From an uncultured Pseudomonadota bacterium (GTDB lineage: Bacteria > Myxococcota_A > UBA796 > SXON01): a stretch of 64,000 nt of DNA. Location: the NCBI GenBank assembly GCA_903875225.1, contig CAIQVJ010000048.1, positions 62,001 through 126,000 on the forward strand, given 5' to 3'. Shown one piece after another: positions 30,171 to 64,000 of the stretch; the first letter of the stretch is position 1; each line of letters begins with the position of its first letter. Position numbers and translations under genes: made by a program. The notes under the pieces are model-generated. The model had not been told where the DNA came from. It was given only the letters and a program-made list of their open reading frames with translations, and searched no databases.

Positions 30171-31994
30171 ATGAAGCCCGTCGAGACCCTCGAAGATGTA
30201 GTAATCCGCTTTGCCGGAGACTCCGGTGACGGCATGCAGATCGTGGGGACACAGTTCACCCAGACGACCGCCCGCCTCGGAAACGACCTTGCAACCTTCC
30301 CCGACTACCCAGCGGAGATTCGCGCGCCCTCGGGCACCGTCGCCGGGGTGAGCGGGTTCCAGCTCCACTTCTCCTCCATCGACATCTCGACGCCAGGCGA
30401 CGTCCCCGACGCGCTGATCGCGATGAACCCCGCGGCGCTCAAGGTCAACATCGGCGACCTCAAGCCCGGCGGCGTGGTGATCGTGAACACGGAGAAATTC
30501 GTGCCGCGCGAGTTCGAGAAGGCCGGATACGCCGCGGACCCGTTGGCGGATGGAGGGCTCGACAAGTACCAGCTGGTGCGGGTGGACATGGGCCGCCTCA
30601 CGCGCGAAGCCGTCGCGGGCCTGGGCCTCACGAACAAGGACACGGACCGGTGTCGGAACTTCTTCGCGCTCGGCATGACGTACTGGCTGTACAGCCGCTC
30701 GATCGAGACGACGCGCGACTGGATCGAGCAGAAGTTCAAGGATCCGTGGAAGCAGGCCAATTTGCGGGCCCTCGAGGCCGGCTGGAGCTACGCGGAGACC
30801 GTCGAGGTCTTCACCTCGCGCTACCAGATCCCCGCGGCGAAGCTCCCCCCCGGGAAATACCGCAACATCGTGGGTAACCACGCTGTTGCGCTCGGTCTCG
30901 CCGCGGCCTCGGCGCGCGCGGAGGTACCCCTTTTCCTGGGCAGCTACCCGATCACGCCCGCCACGGACATCCTCCAGTACCTCGCCGCCTTCAAGGCCTG
31001 GGGCGTCCAGACCTTCCAGGCCGAGGACGAGATCGCAGCCATCGGCTCCGCCATCGGCGCCTCCTACGCCGGCCACATCGGCGTCACCACGACCTCCGGC
31101 CCAGGAATGGCGCTCAAGACCGAGGCGATCGGGCTCGCGATCATGACCGAGCTGCCGCTCGTGATCGTGAACGTGCAGCGCGGCGGGCCCTCCACCGGGC
31201 TGCCGACCAAGACCGAGCAATCCGACCTCTGGCAGGCGCTCGTCGGACGGAACGGCGAGGCGCCCCTCTGCGTGCTCGCAGCCGCATCCCCGGCGGACTG
31301 CTTCCGGATGGCGGTCGAGGCCGTGCGCATCGCCACGACCTACATGACCCCGGTCATCCTGCTCACCGACGGCTACCTCGCGAACGGGTCCGAACCCTGG
31401 CGCGTGAGCGAGCTCTCCGAGCTCCCCGAGATGAAGGTCCACTTCGAGACCAACCCCGAGGACTACCACGCCTACGGGCGCGACCCCGTCACCGGTGCCC
31501 GCCCCTGGGTCCGTCCGGGCACCCCGAAGATGGAGAACCGCATCGGCGGCCTCGAAAAGCAGGAGACCACGGGCAACGTCTCCTACGACGCCGTCAACCA
31601 CGAGGTGATGGTCAAGGCTCGCGCCCAGAAGATCGCGAACATCCAGGTGCCGGATCTCGAGGTGCACGGCGACGCCGACGGCGTGCTGTTCGTCGGCTGG
31701 GGTTCCACCTACGGCGCCATCCGCACGGCCGTGGACGCCGCCCGGGCGCGCGGCCACCGGGTCGCCCACGCCCATCTCCGCTACATGAACCCGCTGCCGG
31801 CCAACACCGCAGAGGTCCTGCGGAGCTTCCGCCGCGTGGTGGTCCCGGAGATGAACCTCGGGCAGCTCTCCCTGTGGCTCCGCGCCCAGACGGGTGTCGG
31901 CTGCATTTCGCTCCCCAAGGTGCAGGGGCGCATGTTCAAGGTCTCTGAGTTGATCGAAGCAATCGCCCTTCACGGGCTGGAGGACGCCAAATGA
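30171..31994 (+). CDS. korA: 2-oxoacid:ferredoxin oxidoreductase, alpha (fused gamma-alpha) subunit
   Basis: ATG 30171; VIRFAGDSGDGMQIVGTQF; GSYPITPATDILQYLA; TTTSGPGMALKTEAIGLA. Confidence 0.93.
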   Translation: MKPVETLEDVVIRFAGDSGDGMQIVGTQFTQTTARLGNDLATFPDYPAEIRAPSGTVAGVSGFQLHFSSIDISTPGDVPDALIAMNPAALKVNIGDLKPGGVVIVNTEKFVPREFEKAGYAADPLADGGLDKYQLVRVDMGRLTREAVAGLGLTNKDTDRCRNFFALGMTYWLYSRSIETTRDWIEQKFKDPWKQANLRALEAGWSYAETVEVFTSRYQIPAAKLPPGKYRNIVGNHAVALGLAAASARAEVPLFLGSYPITPATDILQYLAAFKAWGVQTFQAEDEIAAIGSAIGASYAGHIGVTTTSGPGMALKTEAIGLAIMTELPLVIVNVQRGGPSTGLPTKTEQSDLWQALVGRNGEAPLCVLAAASPADCFRMAVEAVRIATTYMTPVILLTDGYLANGSEPWRVSELSELPEMKVHFETNPEDYHAYGRDPVTGARPWVRPGTPKMENRIGGLEKQETTGNVSYDAVNHEVMVKARAQKIANIQVPDLEVHGDADGVLFVGWGSTYGAIRTAVDAARARGHRVAHAHLRYMNPLPANTAEVLRSFRRVVVPEMNLGQLSLWLRAQTGVGCISLPKVQGRMFKVSELIEAIALHGLEDAK

Positions 31995-33003
31995 CTACCG
32001 AACCCACCGCCGTGCGCACCTTGAATCGCAAGGAGTTCATGTCCTCCCAGATGATCCGGTGGTGCCCGGGCTGCGGCGACTACGCGATCCTGGCGCAGGC
32101 CCAGACCGTGTTCGCGGAGCTCGGCATCCCCCGTGAGAACTTCTGCGTCATCAGCGGCATCGGCTGCTCCAGCCGGTTCCCCTACTACATGGAGACCTAC
32201 GGCTTCCACACGATCCACGGGCGCGCTGCGACCATCGCCTCCGGAGTGAAGCTCGCGAACCCCGAGCTCTCGGTGTGGATCGTCACGGGTGACGGCGACG
32301 CGCTCGCCATCGGCGGGAACCACACCGGGCACCTCCTCCGCCGCAACATCGACGTCCAGGTGCTGCTGTTCAACAACCGGATCTACGGGCTCACGAAAGG
32401 CCAGGCCAGCCCGACCTCGGAGTTCGGCAAGAAGACCAAGTCCACGCCGCTCGGCACGGTCGAGAACCCCTACAACACCGCTGCTTTCGCGCTCGGCTGC
32501 GGTGGCACGTTCGTCGCCCGCACCGTGGACATGTTCACCGCCCAGATGCGCGACATCCTGCGCGCGGCGCACGCCCATCGCGGGACGTCCTTCGTAGAGG
32601 CCTACCAGACCTGCGAGATCTTCAACGACGGGGCGTTCGTCGACCTCACCGACAAGGCGAGCCGCGAAGAAGCGTGCCTCATGCTGCAGAACGGCGCACC
32701 GATGGTGTACGCCGGCGGCAAGAAGGGCATCCGGCTCGAGGGGCTCCGGCCCACGATCGTGGAGCTCGGGGAGCGCTGGAGCGCTTCGGACTGCCTCGTC
32801 CACGACGAGACGGACGACACGCTCGCGGGCATCCTCGCCCGGATGGAGCGACCGTTCCCCGTTCCGATGGGCATCCTGCACCGCGTGCAGAAGCCCACGT
32901 ACGACGCCCTCGCCGCCGCGCAGATCGCGGGCGCCCGGCTCAAGGGGAAGAACCCGCCGATCGAGGATCTTCTGGGGGGTGGAGACACCTGGACGGTGGA
33001 GTA

Positions 33004-33004
<1 letters not shown>
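31991..33004 (+). CDS. korB: 2-oxoacid:ferredoxin oxidoreductase, beta subunit
   Basis: WCPGCGDYAIL; TGDGDALAIGGNHTGHLLRRNIDVQVLLFNNRIYGLTKGQ. Confidence 0.94.
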
Positions 33005-37520: not shown

Positions 37521-37797
37521 CCAACTGAAGCCAGAGTGTGTGGTCTCGCGCAGGAGTCCTGTGCGAGGTCGCACATCCTGTCCGTCGATCATGCGCACAA
37601 ACCCTCTTTTGGGGTGCGAAACCACCCGATCAGCCCGGAAAGCGCGCGGCACAAGCCTTGCAAAGAGGTCCGTCTCGGAGCCCCACGTCTTGTATCCATC
37701 CGTCAAAATTCGTTTCGACATGCATCATATAGCGGATAAGCAAACTGAACGACGGCTCATAAGCCCTCTCACCTAACTCTCACCTCAGGAGGTTCTC

Positions 37798-40575
37798 GTG
37801 ACACGATTCACTCTACTCGGCCTGGTAATGGCCACGACAATGGTCTTCGGATGCGGCAAAGGCACGGAAGGCCCCGCCGGCAAGGATGGCGTCGACGGCG
37901 TTGACGGCGTTGACGGCAAGGATGGTGTCGATGGCACCAACGGCGTCGACGGCACCAACGGCGCGGACGGCGCCGATGGCGCAGACGGCACCAACGGCAT
38001 CGATGGGACGAACGGCGCTGACGGCGCTGACGGCACCAACGGAACGAACGGCACCGACGGGACCGACGGCACCGATGGGACCGACGGCGAAGACGGCCTG
38101 GACGTCGGGATCGCGACCTTCCACGGCGCCGATGCCCTCGCCGCAGCGGACCTCGCGGATGCGGACAAGTACCGCGCCGAGACCACCATCACCGGCGCCA
38201 CCGCCGACGCCTCCGGCGTCGTCACGGTCGACTTCACGGTCCTCGACGCCGACGGCGCCCCGCTGACCGACCTCGCGAGCGCGAACTTCAGCATCGCAGT
38301 CCTCCGCCCCGCTTCGGGCGCCGAGAGCTTCAGCAAGTGGGAATCGTACATCTACCGGACGCAGACCGTCGTCAATTCCTCCAGCAACGACTGGCCGAAC
38401 CCTGATGGCACCGAGGCCGAGCAGGCCTACAAGGAGTCCAGCAGCTCCGGTACCTTCACCAACAACGGTGACGGCTCCTACACCTACGTGTACGGCACGA
38501 ACATCTCCGCGGTCGTCACGCCTGTCACGGGCACCGCGATCACCTACGACCGCACCCTGACCCACCGCGTCGCGGTGATGTTCGGTGGACACAGCGGCCC
38601 CACCGACGACGCCACGTTCGACTTCGTCCCGGACGGCTCGGCCGTCACGGATACGCGCAACATCGTCGAGACCGCCACCTGCCAGCACTGCCACGGCACC
38701 GAGTTCGCCGGGCACGGCGGTGACCGCGTGTCCGTCGAAAGCTGCGTGACCTGCCACACCCCGCTCACCATCGACCCGCAGAGCGGCAACACCGTCGACT
38801 TCAAGGTCATGATCCACAAGATCCACATGGGCGGCGAGCTCCCCGGTGTCGCCGGCGCAGACGGCCTGATCTGGGACGACCTGAGCACGGACACCGACGA
38901 GTCGGCGGACAATGAGGACTACGCCATCTGGGGCTACGGTGACTCCAAGCTCGAGTGGTCCGCGGTCGGGTTCCCCGCAGTCATCAACAACTGCACCGCC
39001 TGCCACACCGGCTCCGGCGCGCAGGTCGACAACTGGAAGGAAGTCCCCTCGCGTGACACCTGCGGCTCCTGCCACAGCGACATCGACTTCGCGACCGGCG
39101 ACGGCCACGACGGCGGCGCCTACAGCGATGACTCGGCCTGCACGATGTGCCACGGCGCCGACGGCACCGCGACCATGGCGCCGACGGTCTGGGAAGCCCA
39201 CGACATCGCGACGAACGCCAACACGCAGGACGTCCCCGAGTTCGACGTCTCGCTCACGGTGTCCACGCCCGCCAACGGCTCCTACTTCGTCGCGGGAGAG
39301 ACCCCCGTGGTGCACATCGCGCTGACGGACGCCTCCACGGGCGTGCTCATCGACCACACCACGATGTACGCCGACACCAACAAGGAGAGCTGCACCTCCA
39401 CGACCTGCACCGCTCGTGACGGCCTGTTCAACCACGCGTACCTGATGGTGGACGGCCCCCGCGCCAACCGGGTCCCCGTGCTCGGCACGGTGGCACGGGT
39501 CGAGATCGAGAGCTCCGACGCCGGTCCGTTCGACCTGTCCAGCGCCTCCACCCTCGACCTCGTGGTCGATGGCGGCAAGGACGTTCGCACGCGCACGGAC
39601 ACCTACGCAGCGAGCATCAGCGTCGCCGTGTCGGATGGCACGTTCGCGAACCGGGCCGCGGCGACCCCCACCGAGATCGTGACCTGGCTCAACGACGACA
39701 CGGCCTTCGCCGATCGCGCGATCGCCTACCTCACGACCTCGGGCGGCGTCGGCATCCGCAGCCGGAACCTGGGCGACTTCTTCTCGCTCCAGCTTGGCGA
39801 CTGCGACGTCAACACCGAAGTCTTCGGTGGTGACACCGAGGAGAAGGTCATCGGCGGCTCCTACGCGTACAACAGCATCGTCCGCAACACGAGCACGAGC
39901 AGCAACGATCCGAAGGCCGCATGGTCCACGGGCGAAGTCACCTACACCCTCGACCCCGTCGACGACCTCCAGCCTGGCACCTACATCGCCAGTGTCGAGA
40001 TCGCGGACGCCGGTCGCACGAGTGACACCGACTACCGCACGCCCTCGGTCGCCAAGGTCACGTTCCAGGTCGGCCAGGCCGATGAGGAGCTCGCCCCCGC
40101 CGGTAACTGCGATTCCTGCCACCAGTCGTCCGACGGTCAGGGCCTGATCTTCGACCAGCCCCGTCACCACAAGATCTTCGACCAGACGGCGATCGACCAG
40201 TGCGGTGGGTGTCACGACTACCAGAACCGGTACGCGACCGGCGATTACTCAGGCGGGAACCCGATCAGCCGGCGCGTCCACGCCGTGCACGATGGTTCTG
40301 CATTGAACTATCCTGAGGACACCGTCGGCCACGCGGATACAGTAGCCGGGCGGTACTGGGACATCACCTTCCCCCAGGACATCCGCAACTGTGAGACATG
40401 CCACGAGACCGATACGACCAGTGGAACCTGGGCCACGAAGCCGGCGCGGCTGCCCTGCTCGGGCTGCCACGACTCGGACGCTGCGAGCGCCCACATGGAC
40501 CTGATGACGCTGGACCCGACCCCGGACGATCCGTGGAGCGGCGACGAGGAAGAGAGCTGCGAAGTCTGCCACTAG
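37798..40575 (+). CDS. OmcA/MtrC-family decaheme c-type cytochrome lipoprotein with N-terminal collagen-like stalk
   Basis: GTG start after AGGAGGT; lipobox VFGC; 27 G-X-Y triplets; exactly 10 CXXCH motifs, the last at the C-terminus. Confidence 0.92.
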   Translation: MTRFTLLGLVMATTMVFGCGKGTEGPAGKDGVDGVDGVDGKDGVDGTNGVDGTNGADGADGADGTNGIDGTNGADGADGTNGTNGTDGTDGTDGTDGEDGLDVGIATFHGADALAAADLADADKYRAETTITGATADASGVVTVDFTVLDADGAPLTDLASANFSIAVLRPASGAESFSKWESYIYRTQTVVNSSSNDWPNPDGTEAEQAYKESSSSGTFTNNGDGSYTYVYGTNISAVVTPVTGTAITYDRTLTHRVAVMFGGHSGPTDDATFDFVPDGSAVTDTRNIVETATCQHCHGTEFAGHGGDRVSVESCVTCHTPLTIDPQSGNTVDFKVMIHKIHMGGELPGVAGADGLIWDDLSTDTDESADNEDYAIWGYGDSKLEWSAVGFPAVINNCTACHTGSGAQVDNWKEVPSRDTCGSCHSDIDFATGDGHDGGAYSDDSACTMCHGADGTATMAPTVWEAHDIATNANTQDVPEFDVSLTVSTPANGSYFVAGETPVVHIALTDASTGVLIDHTTMYADTNKESCTSTTCTARDGLFNHAYLMVDGPRANRVPVLGTVARVEIESSDAGPFDLSSASTLDLVVDGGKDVRTRTDTYAASISVAVSDGTFANRAAATPTEIVTWLNDDTAFADRAIAYLTTSGGVGIRSRNLGDFFSLQLGDCDVNTEVFGGDTEEKVIGGSYAYNSIVRNTSTSSNDPKAAWSTGEVTYTLDPVDDLQPGTYIASVEIADAGRTSDTDYRTPSVAKVTFQVGQADEELAPAGNCDSCHQSSDGQGLIFDQPRHHKIFDQTAIDQCGGCHDYQNRYATGDYSGGNPISRRVHAVHDGSALNYPEDTVGHADTVAGRYWDITFPQDIRNCETCHETDTTSGTWATKPARLPCSGCHDSDAASAHMDLMTLDPTPDDPWSGDEEESCEVCH
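37861..38103 (+). repeat. Collagen-like (Gly-X-Y)27 coding repeat
   Basis: GTE GPA GKD GVD GVD ... GTD GTD GTD GED GLD read directly. Confidence 0.95.
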
Positions 40576-40652
40576 GCAGGTCTGAGCTTGCGGAGGCGGC
40601 GGCCACTGGCCGTCGTCTCCTCCGGCCGCTTCCAGCCAGCATCCTCCTCGGG

Positions 40653-41513
40653 ATGCTGGCTGGTTGCGTTGAGGCGCCCGTGTCCAAGGCCCCTGCAGCT
40701 CCGGATGCGTACGCCGTGGCGATGGTCAACGGCCACCCCGTCCACGCCGACGACGTCGCCGAGTACGTCCGTTCCTCCAGCCACGAGGAGAAGGACAGCC
40801 TCGAGCGTAGAAAGAACGCCCTGGAGGTGATCATCGACGAAGAGCTGGCCACCCAGAAGGCCGAGGCGCTGGGGCTGCAACCCACCGAGGTCGCCCAGAC
40901 CAAGATCCGCGGCCTGCAGTCGCAGATCGAGGACATCCGGCGGCATGAGCTCTCCGCGGCGTACTTTCGCCAGCAGGTCAGGGCCCAGTCGGGCGGGGAC
41001 GACATCGCCGCCTTCTACAAGGCGAACGAGGCGAACATCCGCACCGACGTGCACGTGTTCCAGATCCTGCGTCGGAGCGAGGCCGAGATCAACGAGGTCG
41101 AGGCCCAGCTCAAGAAGGGGGTCCCCTTCGAGGAGCTGGCGGCACAGCCCTTCGCGAAGCTGCCCCCCGCGGTGGGCAACCCCTGGGATCTCGGCTTCCT
41201 GAAGTGGAGCCAGGTCCCGGAGCCCTGGCAGGGGCTCGTGTACGACATGGCCCCGGGAGCCGTGAGCGGGGTGATCAAGGGTCCGAACGAGCGGTTCTGG
41301 ATCATCCAGGTCGTGGCCAAACAGGAGAACCCGGGCGCCACGCTCGAGGCCATGAGGCCGGTGCTGGAGAAGCTCCTGGGCGCCCGACGTGAGGAGGCTG
41401 CGCGCACGGATGCCCAGAAGAAGCTCCGGAGCGAGGCCAAGGTGGAGTACCTGAACCCAGCGTTGCTCTCGCCCGCTGCTCCGGTCAAGAACCCCGACGC
41501 AGAAGAGGAGTAG
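40653..41513 (+). CDS. Parvulin-type (PpiC/SurA-like) peptidyl-prolyl isomerase lipoprotein; 5' start uncertain
   Basis: VHVFQILRRSEAEINEVEAQLKKGVPFEELA...LGFLKWSQVPEPWQGLVYDMAPGAVSGVIKGPNERFWIIQVV; lipobox LAGC. Confidence 0.8.
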   Translation: MLAGCVEAPVSKAPAAPDAYAVAMVNGHPVHADDVAEYVRSSSHEEKDSLERRKNALEVIIDEELATQKAEALGLQPTEVAQTKIRGLQSQIEDIRRHELSAAYFRQQVRAQSGGDDIAAFYKANEANIRTDVHVFQILRRSEAEINEVEAQLKKGVPFEELAAQPFAKLPPAVGNPWDLGFLKWSQVPEPWQGLVYDMAPGAVSGVIKGPNERFWIIQVVAKQENPGATLEAMRPVLEKLLGARREEAARTDAQKKLRSEAKVEYLNPALLSPAAPVKNPDAEEE

Positions 41514-42154: not shown

Positions 42155-43174
42155 TCAGGGCCAGGGCGAGGCGCCGATCACCCACGCGTGCCCCCACGAC
42201 ACCAGGGCGTAGAGCGCGAGCCCGCCGAGGATCCGCACGACGCCAATCTCCCGGAGGGAAAACGTGTTCCGCCCCGCTGCGATCGCGGAGAACGGCACCA
42301 CGGAGGTGGCTGCCGCGTAACGGGCCCAGGCCTCGGGGGAGCGCCGCGCCAGCCGCCGGTCGATGTGCAGGCTGCCCACGATCCCCAGGGCCAGCACCGA
42401 GCCGAAGAGCCCCACGGACGCCAGATCGCCGTTCGGGAAAAGGTGGGCGACCGCCCACAACGAGGTCGAGATGTTCACGGGGTGGCGTGTGATCCGGTGG
42501 ATCCCGCGTGCGGGGCTCCCGACCATCGCCGCCATGCCAGCCATCGTGGGCGAAGGCGTCGTGTAGCCCGCCACCTGCATGACCATCACCCACGGCATCA
42601 CGAGCAGGGGCACCCAGCGCGTCCAGGTGGACGGCGCCCATAGCTCCACGTACGGGGCCTTCGTCCAGCCGTACACGAGCGCTCCGAGCGCCAGGCCGAT
42701 GACGACCGAGTAGGCAGCCATGAACCCGTACTCACCGAGCCGGGCGATGGCACGGTCCCGCAGGTGCCGCCCGGACAGCAGGAGGTGCCCGCCCACGAAC
42801 GCGACGCCCCCGAGCGCCACGACGCCAAACCAGCCGCGGGAACCCGGCGCCGCGGGCGAGAGCGCAGTGATGGCGCCGACCAGCCGGTCGACGCGCGCCC
42901 TATCGGCCGTGGGGGGCATGATCCCCGGCGCGAAGCCGACGACCACCTCGGCGTCAGGCTCCAGGAGCGCGCGACGCAGGTAGGCCTCGTCGGCCACCAC
43001 GTCGAGGCCCTGCCCGGCGGCCGTCCGGACATGCTCCGTCCGGCCCGCGAGCGTCGAGAGGTCCGGGCCCACGCCGGCGGCACCACCCGGATGGCAAGCG
43101 AGGCAGCCATCGGCGCGCAGATCATCGAGCGGCGCCGCGAGCGCGACCGGGATCAGCAGCCCCAGGCCGATCAC
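42155..43174 (-). CDS. Monoheme cytochrome c domain fused to NnrU-like membrane domain
   Basis: GCLACHPGGAAGVGPDLSTL...AYLRRALLEPDAEVVVGFAPGIMPP then multi-TM ITRHPVNISTSLWAVAHLFPNGD. Confidence 0.8.
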   Translation of the reverse strand: MIGLGLLIPVALAAPLDDLRADGCLACHPGGAAGVGPDLSTLAGRTEHVRTAAGQGLDVVADEAYLRRALLEPDAEVVVGFAPGIMPPTADRARVDRLVGAITALSPAAPGSRGWFGVVALGGVAFVGGHLLLSGRHLRDRAIARLGEYGFMAAYSVVIGLALGALVYGWTKAPYVELWAPSTWTRWVPLLVMPWVMVMQVAGYTTPSPTMAGMAAMVGSPARGIHRITRHPVNISTSLWAVAHLFPNGDLASVGLFGSVLALGIVGSLHIDRRLARRSPEAWARYAAATSVVPFSAIAAGRNTFSLREIGVVRILGGLALYALVSWGHAWVIGASPWP

Positions 43175-63276: not shown

Positions 63277-64000
63277 CTACCCGACCATCCAGGTCTCGCG
63301 CCCGGTCACGAGCGCCTGCAGGTCGCCCTTCCCCTTCGCCGCCACGATCTCCTCCACCTGCGCGTTCATCTCGCGATCGAACGTCGGGCGTTCCTTGCGG
63401 TGAATCACGCCCATGGGAACGGGGAAGTCGGGGTAGTCCATCCGCGCGAGGATGGCACCCAGGAACGGGTCGGTCTCGTCGTGGACGAGGCAGTCATCGG
63501 CCGTGATCCCGGCGCCGATGTCCACCACGGTGGGGCGCATCCCGTTGAGCTTGATGCCCTTCTTCCCGCCAGCGAACACCATCGGCTTCCCGTGCTCGAG
63601 GAACAGGCAGCGCTCCTCGCGGATCGTCTTGTCCACGAGCTGGTCCCATGCCCCATCGTTGAAGATGTTGCAGTTCTGGTAGATCTCGACGAACGACGTG
63701 CCCCTGTGGTGGTACGCAGCCTTGAGCACGTCGCGCTGTTGAACGGTGAACACGTCCACGGACCGCGCAACGAAGCTCGCATCACAGCCGAGCGCAAACG
63801 CCAGCGGCAGCATCGGATGGTCCACAGAGCCGAACGGCGAGGACTTCGTCTTCTTGCCGGCCTCGGACGTGGGGCTGTACTGGCCCTTGGTGAGCCCGTA
63901 GATGCGGTTGTTGATGAGCAGGACCTGAACATCGACGTTGCGGCGGATCATGTGCGCGGTGTGGTTGCCACCGATGGAGAGCGCGTCGCCATCCCCCGTG
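63277..64000 (-). CDS. 2-oxoacid:ferredoxin oxidoreductase beta subunit, second copy (N-terminus beyond window)
   Basis: Frame continues past base 64000 (TGDGDALSIGGNHTAHMIRRNVDVQVLLINNRIYGLTKGQ). Confidence 0.92.
   Translation of the reverse strand, partial: TGDGDALSIGGNHTAHMIRRNVDVQVLLINNRIYGLTKGQYSPTSEAGKKTKSSPFGSVDHPMLPLAFALGCDASFVARSVDVFTVQQRDVLKAAYHHRGTSFVEIYQNCNIFNDGAWDQLVDKTIREERCLFLEHGKPMVFAGGKKGIKLNGMRPTVVDIGAGITADDCLVHDETDPFLGAILARMDYPDFPVPMGVIHRKERPTFDREMNAQVEEIVAAKGKGDLQALVTGRETWMVG

Follow-up and report, generated by a model that had tools for sequence, protein, structure and literature searches.

A long collagen-like stalk on an OmcA/MtrC-family decaheme cytochrome, a variant of a widespread and interchangeable lipoprotein stalk

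The cytochrome gene and its surroundings

The window analysed in this study is a stretch of 64,000 nucleotides from the genome of an uncultured bacterium. Its forward strand carries an ORF (37798-40575) which begins with a GTG start codon and encodes a cytochrome of 925 amino acids. The features of this gene and its downstream neighbour, all on the + strand, are listed below.

37787..37792, +, Shine-Dalgarno-like AGGAGG, 5 nt upstream of the GTG start (sequence)
37798..37851, +, signal peptide, aa 1-18, up to the lipobox MVFG|C (sequence)
37852..37854, +, Cys19, predicted to be lipidated and to form the mature N-terminus (sequence; relatives keep the lipobox at the stalk start)
37861..38103, +, collagen-like stalk, aa 22-102, 27 Gly-X-Y triplets, net charge ~-18 (PF01391 and sequence)
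38104..38184, +, junction with an FHG motif (ATFHGADAL...), conserved directly after the stalk in the clade of the window protein
38185..38634, +, domain I, OmcA-like N-terminal beta domain, PF22112 (Pfam; AlphaFold model)
38656..39174, +, pentaheme domain II, PF22113, hemes 1-5 (Pfam and CXXCH positions)
39175..40092, +, domain III (second beta domain), in which the clade has insertions of its own compared with the rest of the family (alignment; model)
40108..40572, +, pentaheme domain IV, hemes 6-10 (Pfam, CXXCH; low model confidence)
40629..41513, +, PpiC/SurA-type peptidyl-prolyl isomerase lipoprotein with an uncertain start codon, conserved downstream of the cytochromes of this clade (Pfam; neighbourhood comparison)

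The anatomy given in the initial annotation proved to be exact: the lipobox Cys is followed by 27 unbroken Gly-X-Y triplets, rich in Asp, Asn and Thr and with a single Pro, and then by ten CXXCH motifs (aa 295, 316, 399, 422, 448, 771, 802, 865, 887 and 921). Long antisense ORFs across the stalk (e.g., 37785-38351, - strand) were taken as by-products of the repeat.

Three further observations concern the surroundings of the gene. The frame of the PpiC-type protein (40398-41513, +) has no ATG, GTG or TTG near the signal peptide: one ATG lies just a few codons short of the lipobox Cys, and another deep within the cytochrome gene; an unusual start, a sequence error or a frameshift could each account for this anomaly. 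On the - strand, 42155-43174 encodes an NnrU-domain membrane protein, the N-terminal extension of which contains one CXXCH (CLACH), apparently a fusion of a monoheme cytochrome and NnrU. Finally, an ORF at the end of the window similar to the beta subunit of 2-oxoacid:ferredoxin oxidoreductase (63277-63951, -) resembles another at 31991-33004 (+), upstream of the cytochrome.

Membership in the OmcA/MtrC family

The window protein is a true decaheme member of the OmcA/MtrC family, as had been proposed. It scored 345.8 bits against TIGR03507 (OmcA/MtrC; NCBIfam), the cut-off of which is 209.3, and Pfam recognised Collagen, OmcA-like_N and, twice, the MtrC/MtrF domain II/IV (PF22113). The ten CXXCH motifs of the head are thus divided between two pentaheme domains with a beta domain between them, and the lipobox typical of the family is present as MVFGC19, as read from the sequence. 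The best Foldseek match of the AlphaFold model of the mature protein was OmcA (4lmh, E 1.7e-27), followed by MtrC, UndA and MtrF. The last heme domain (IV) was poorly predicted in this model, and the stalk appeared unstructured in the monomer (pLDDT ~28).

Composition of the stalk and selection on its glycines

The X position of the window stalk is occupied mainly by Thr, Val or Ala, and the Y position by 19 Asp, six Asn, one Glu and one Ala, so that Asp or Asn is found in 25 of the 27 triplets. Among the 83 stalk residues scored there were 19 Asp and 2 Glu, with only 3 Lys. The Pfam profile Collagen (PF01391) matched the stalk with 47.6 bits (cut-off 27.2). The run of 27 is far longer than chance would give: the longest Gly-X-Y run reached 7 triplets in 2000 shuffles of the whole protein and 10 triplets in 5000 shuffles of the stalk alone.

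At the DNA level the stalk is composed of tandem 9-bp copies, which are ~70-75% alike. Despite this divergence, the first and second positions of the Gly codons were changed at none of 54 sites, as opposed to 23 of 54 in the X codons (p = 1e-8), which argues that Gly is being kept at each third position; the silent third positions of the same Gly codons were changed in 5 of 27 cases. The two paralogs described below show the same pattern. Gly in the stalk is thus under strong selection.

Repeat stalks across the family

We surveyed 379 genomes of the phylum (probably Myxococcota, to judge by named relatives), 77 of which carried OmcA/MtrC, together with 80 named loci from GTDB genomes; these loci make up the entire coverage outside the phylum and are biased towards close relatives. 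The survey yielded 152 family members; scoring used the 139 that were sufficiently complete. One member of the window clade (L182) comes from Anaeromyxobacter sp. PSR-1, a cultivable species with a stalked cytochrome.

The stalk had initially been regarded as unusual for this family, a view that the survey overturned. A repeat stalk was found in 122 of 128 proteins with a lipobox and in 1 of 11 without (Fisher p = 1.6e-10), as classified by patterns of our own making with four lipoboxes added by eye. After correction for kinship, about 5 of 6 independent pairs on the tree agreed with the link between stalk and lipobox (sign-test median p 0.06). The only stalked protein without a lipobox, a decaheme OmcA/MtrC-type protein on a contig labelled as a Nitrososphaerota archaeon (L248), has an apparent N-terminal membrane helix and then 19 Gly-X-Y triplets, and the lipobox-bearing members without a repeat stalk were few (e.g., L056, L234 and L237). 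In 73 relatives the stalk begins at most 4 residues from the lipidated Cys. A repeat stalk, usually of Gly-X-Y type, is the norm for relatives that carry a lipobox, and this holds in several phyla. Short forms occur in the Shewanella members: near the mature N-terminus, Shewanella OmcA has the stretch GSD GKD GED GKP GVV GVN and Shewanella MtrC the stretch GGSDGNNGNDGSDGG. As these proteins already possess 4-6 triplets, the window stalk is a long form of a family-wide tether.

What is conserved among the homologues is the presence of the stalk, not its length or its chemistry. Relatives carry 4 to 48 Gly-X-Y triplets, with perfect runs reaching 48. By the same patterns, the 139 scored proteins comprised 56 with a Pro-rich or mixed Gly-X-Y stalk, 48 with Cys repeats and Gly-X-Y, 11 with Asp/Asn-rich Gly-X-Y, five with short Gly-X-Y, three with DUF7151 and 16 with no stalk. 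On a tree of the heads only (FastTree), in which 39 of 136 inner branches were weakly supported, the stalk class changed at least 37 times. In a single genome, two proteins with near-identical heads (L062 and L073) bear a Cys-repeat/Gly-X-Y stalk and an unrelated Asp/Pro-rich repeat, respectively. Relatives 50-58% identical to the window protein bear GXD, Pro-rich Gly-X-Y or Cys repeats, and one with 59% identity in its best segment (L172) combines a Cys-rich segment of Dicty_CTDC type with 5 triplets.

The Cys-repeat unit is ~29 residues long (CTVxDNGDGTKTITCxDGTSVTVxDG), and its 161 copies keep the two Cys at nearly fixed spacing; no Pfam family fitted it well. These units alternate with Gly-X-Y between lipobox and head in L098, L092, L115, L109 and others. 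A separate observation was made in L088, where Gly-X-Y alternates with CWDLNADGxGNxxxEDANxDGxVDAADC units weakly resembling dockerin/EF-hand calcium loops.

Paralogs and other collagen-like runs in the genome

Two further OmcA/MtrC paralogs passing the family cut-off are encoded in the same genome, on contigs C6 and C81. Both are stalked, with 36 (C6) and 19 (C81) triplets after the lipobox; in the C6 paralog, the unbroken Gly-X-Y run begins 15 residues past the Cys. We scanned the genome for ten successive codon triplets with GGN at every third codon, which matched ~10 places, three of them being the cytochromes. Since the remaining matches were GDT/GET linkers, Gly-Pro or Gly-Ser-Gln runs, and antisense or Gly-rich artefacts, no lipoprotein other than the three OmcA/MtrC paralogs was found in this whole-genome scan to carry ten or more triplets in a run after its lipobox. 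Across the order, collagen-like stretches are present in other proteins as well, some alongside DUF7151-like repeats, so that the collagen-like module is a general one which the cytochromes have recruited, and not their own invention.

Neighbouring genes and a candidate conduit

In most loci of the window clade, a PpiC-type isomerase lipoprotein lies ~45-490 bp downstream of the cytochrome. It is present whatever the stalk type in the clade, and thus goes with the head rather than the stalk. No such isomerase was found beside the more distant cytochromes in the loci examined.

A search for MtrAB-like partners gave no MtrB: MtrB/PioB (TIGR03509) was not found by profile search in the genome of the window, which is ~95% complete. 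Likewise, Shewanella OmcA is not encoded with an MtrAB of its own (PMC7096707). Among the 379 genomes of the phylum, MtrB/PioB occurred in 22 and OmcA/MtrC in 77, with both in only 1 (~4.5 expected); the two are almost mutually exclusive in this phylum.

A different set of genes on contig C81 of the same genome (G000, C81:36500-56000; L023 and L024) may take the place of such a conduit. This large multiheme cytochrome cluster includes the stalked OmcA paralog, an NHL-propeller cytochrome and a cytochrome b561 fusion. The AlphaFold model of one ORF in it (C81:51594-52835, - strand) is a 22-strand beta-barrel (pLDDT 82.5), for which the Foldseek matches were known outer-membrane barrels; the ORF matched neither a Pfam family nor TIGR03509. 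The barrel was detected in 9 of the 379 genomes. OmcA/MtrC is likewise present in 7 of these, and in three genomes other than that of the window (G010, G013 and G016) the barrel shares a contig with a stalked OmcA. We regard the barrel and its cytochromes as a candidate for a new porin-cytochrome conduit.

Role of the stalk

We consider that the stalk is probably an interchangeable spacer between the lipid anchor and the redox head, which tethers the head beyond the outer membrane. In Shewanella, the OmcA/MtrC proteins are lipoproteins that reach the cell surface through type II secretion (PMC7096707, PMC6929479). The window cytochrome would receive its lipid on Cys19 and be exported to the outside of the outer membrane. 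There, the 81-residue Gly-X-Y stretch would space the head from the lipid by up to ~23 nm if fully extended, given 0.29 nm per residue in a triple helix (PMC3368898), and by much less when coiled. Such a spacer could take the head past the surface polysaccharide and within range of minerals, shuttles or other cytochromes. Electrons cannot run along the stalk, because it is devoid of heme; the head would have to touch a membrane conduit or a neighbouring cytochrome to take them up, and then pass them on. For the same reason, a conduit at the foot of a stiff rod could not supply a head at its tip. It is more plausible that the tether is compliant, or that neighbouring cytochromes provide the electrons, than that the stalk is a stiff 23-nm rod. 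A spacer role is not specific to collagen, since evolution puts disulfide-type and other repeats in the place of Gly-X-Y. Both the commonness of the stalk and its frequent replacement suggest that it holds an electron-transfer head off the membrane, and not that it serves a collagen-specific purpose.

Nevertheless, the Gly periodicity is stricter than a plain flexible linker requires, and hints at a real triple helix. As Gly is under strong selection, we regard it as possible, albeit doubtful, that three chains form a true collagen triple helix, a stiff rod that bundles their decaheme heads, 30 hemes in all, on the outside of the outer membrane. Gly in 27 of 27 triplets with no non-silent change at 54 codon positions while X is free to vary, the perfect runs of up to 48 triplets in relatives and the above-cut-off match to the Collagen profile all fit this reading, and low-Pro, charge-rich bacterial collagens can be triple-helical (Scl2, PMC8968730). 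On the other hand, the net charge of ~-18 per chain, with only 3 Lys, leaves little room for salt-bridge pairing, the stalk has a single Pro with Asp or Asn at 25 of 27 Y positions, and a stiff 23-nm rod would put the head beyond tunnelling range of its donor. Known bacterial collagens possess trimerisation domains (PMC3368898, PMC8968730), but none was recognised in the window protein among the known domains of Pfam and NCBIfam. In addition, in many relatives the run is too short to form a stable helix or is replaced by non-collagen modules (Cys-repeat, DUF7151, Dicty_CTDC), and therefore the head does not need a collagen trimer. An acidic, Pro-poor sequence, the want of a recognised trimerisation domain, short runs and module swaps together weaken the idea of trimerisation and heme bundling, which is possible but not needed to explain the data. 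It is rather unlikely, in our judgement, that the outer-membrane decaheme reductases of many phyla are in general collagen-stalked triple-helical trimers, i.e., 30-heme bundles on rods of ~23 nm (to ~40 nm in relatives), the length and chemistry of which are matched to the cell envelope.

The 19 Asp and 2 Glu in 83 stalk residues also raise the question of whether the acidic stalk is mainly a binding element, for calcium, iron or other cations, a mineral surface or exopolysaccharide, and not a spacer. Asp/Asn-rich stalks recur in 11 scored family members, and the PTX repeats of Geobacter PgcA have been suggested as iron-oxide binders (PMC5732950); however, the stalks of most relatives are Pro/Gln/Glu/Ala-rich or of the Cys-repeat type and are without such a charge pattern, which makes this proposal quite improbable. 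The many copies of a 9-bp period in the DNA, and a length highly variable among relatives, would be expected of a functionless minisatellite made by slippage and tolerated at the N-terminus of a lipoprotein. Yet the copies have diverged (70-75%) while Gly is constant, and stalks of unrelated sequence recur at the same site with lipid anchors. We rejected such an artefact on the Gly codon test and consider it very improbable indeed. Prolyl isomerisation generally limits collagen folding, and a PpiC-type lipoprotein lies directly downstream of the cytochrome in the window and in most clade loci, from which one might take the isomerase for a dedicated folding helper of the collagen stalk and the pair for a collagen-specific unit. 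This, too, is scarcely credible: the isomerase is present with any stalk type, including Cys-repeat stalks and the one-Pro stalk of the window, and none turned up next to the stalked cytochromes examined outside the clade. PpiC as a collagen foldase was rejected, as its presence does not track the stalk type.

If the stalk is the swappable, family-wide spacer that we favour, the way in which terminal cytochromes reach minerals or electrodes past the surface polysaccharide becomes testable through the length of one segment.

Comparison with known systems

In the open-access literature, which our search covered to the exclusion of subscription journals, we found no paper linking collagen-like repeats with OmcA/MtrC cytochromes. 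The nearest published idea is Geobacter sulfurreducens PgcA with its PTX repeats. PgcA, an extracellular cytochrome, shares with the window protein a site for lipid attachment and long triplet repeats of low complexity (PMC5732950), but its PTX repeats lie between single hemes, the protein is cleaved and released, and its heme domains are unrelated (PMC5732950).

With bacterial collagen-like proteins (Scl1/2, Lcl, E. coli prophage EPclA and Bucl), the window protein shares uninterrupted Gly-X-Y joined to a globular domain, as well as charged residues, and hydroxyproline is not expected in either. In contrast to these proteins, the window stalk is nearly without Pro and its cargo is a multiheme cytochrome; the best-studied bacterial collagens, moreover, trimerise through known trimerisation domains (PMC3368898, PMC8968730), of which we recognised none here.

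As in the MtrCAB and Geobacter Pcc conduits, a modelled barrel and multiheme cytochromes, among them a stalked OmcA paralog, are encoded in one gene cluster of the genome, whereas the window gene itself lies outside this cluster on C81. The closest resemblance is to OmcA, MtrC and MtrF of Shewanella (TIGR03507; PDB 4lmh, 4lm8, 3pmq), with which the window protein shares two beta domains, two pentaheme domains, ten CXXCH motifs and the lipid-anchored N-terminal Cys. It differs from Shewanella OmcA/MtrC in that its gene adjoins that of a PpiC lipoprotein in a genome where no MtrB/PioB homologue was found by profile search, and in having 27 triplets in the stalk as opposed to 4-6. The window protein is thus a member of the OmcA/MtrC family, and its stalk is a long version of one that is both widespread and interchangeable.
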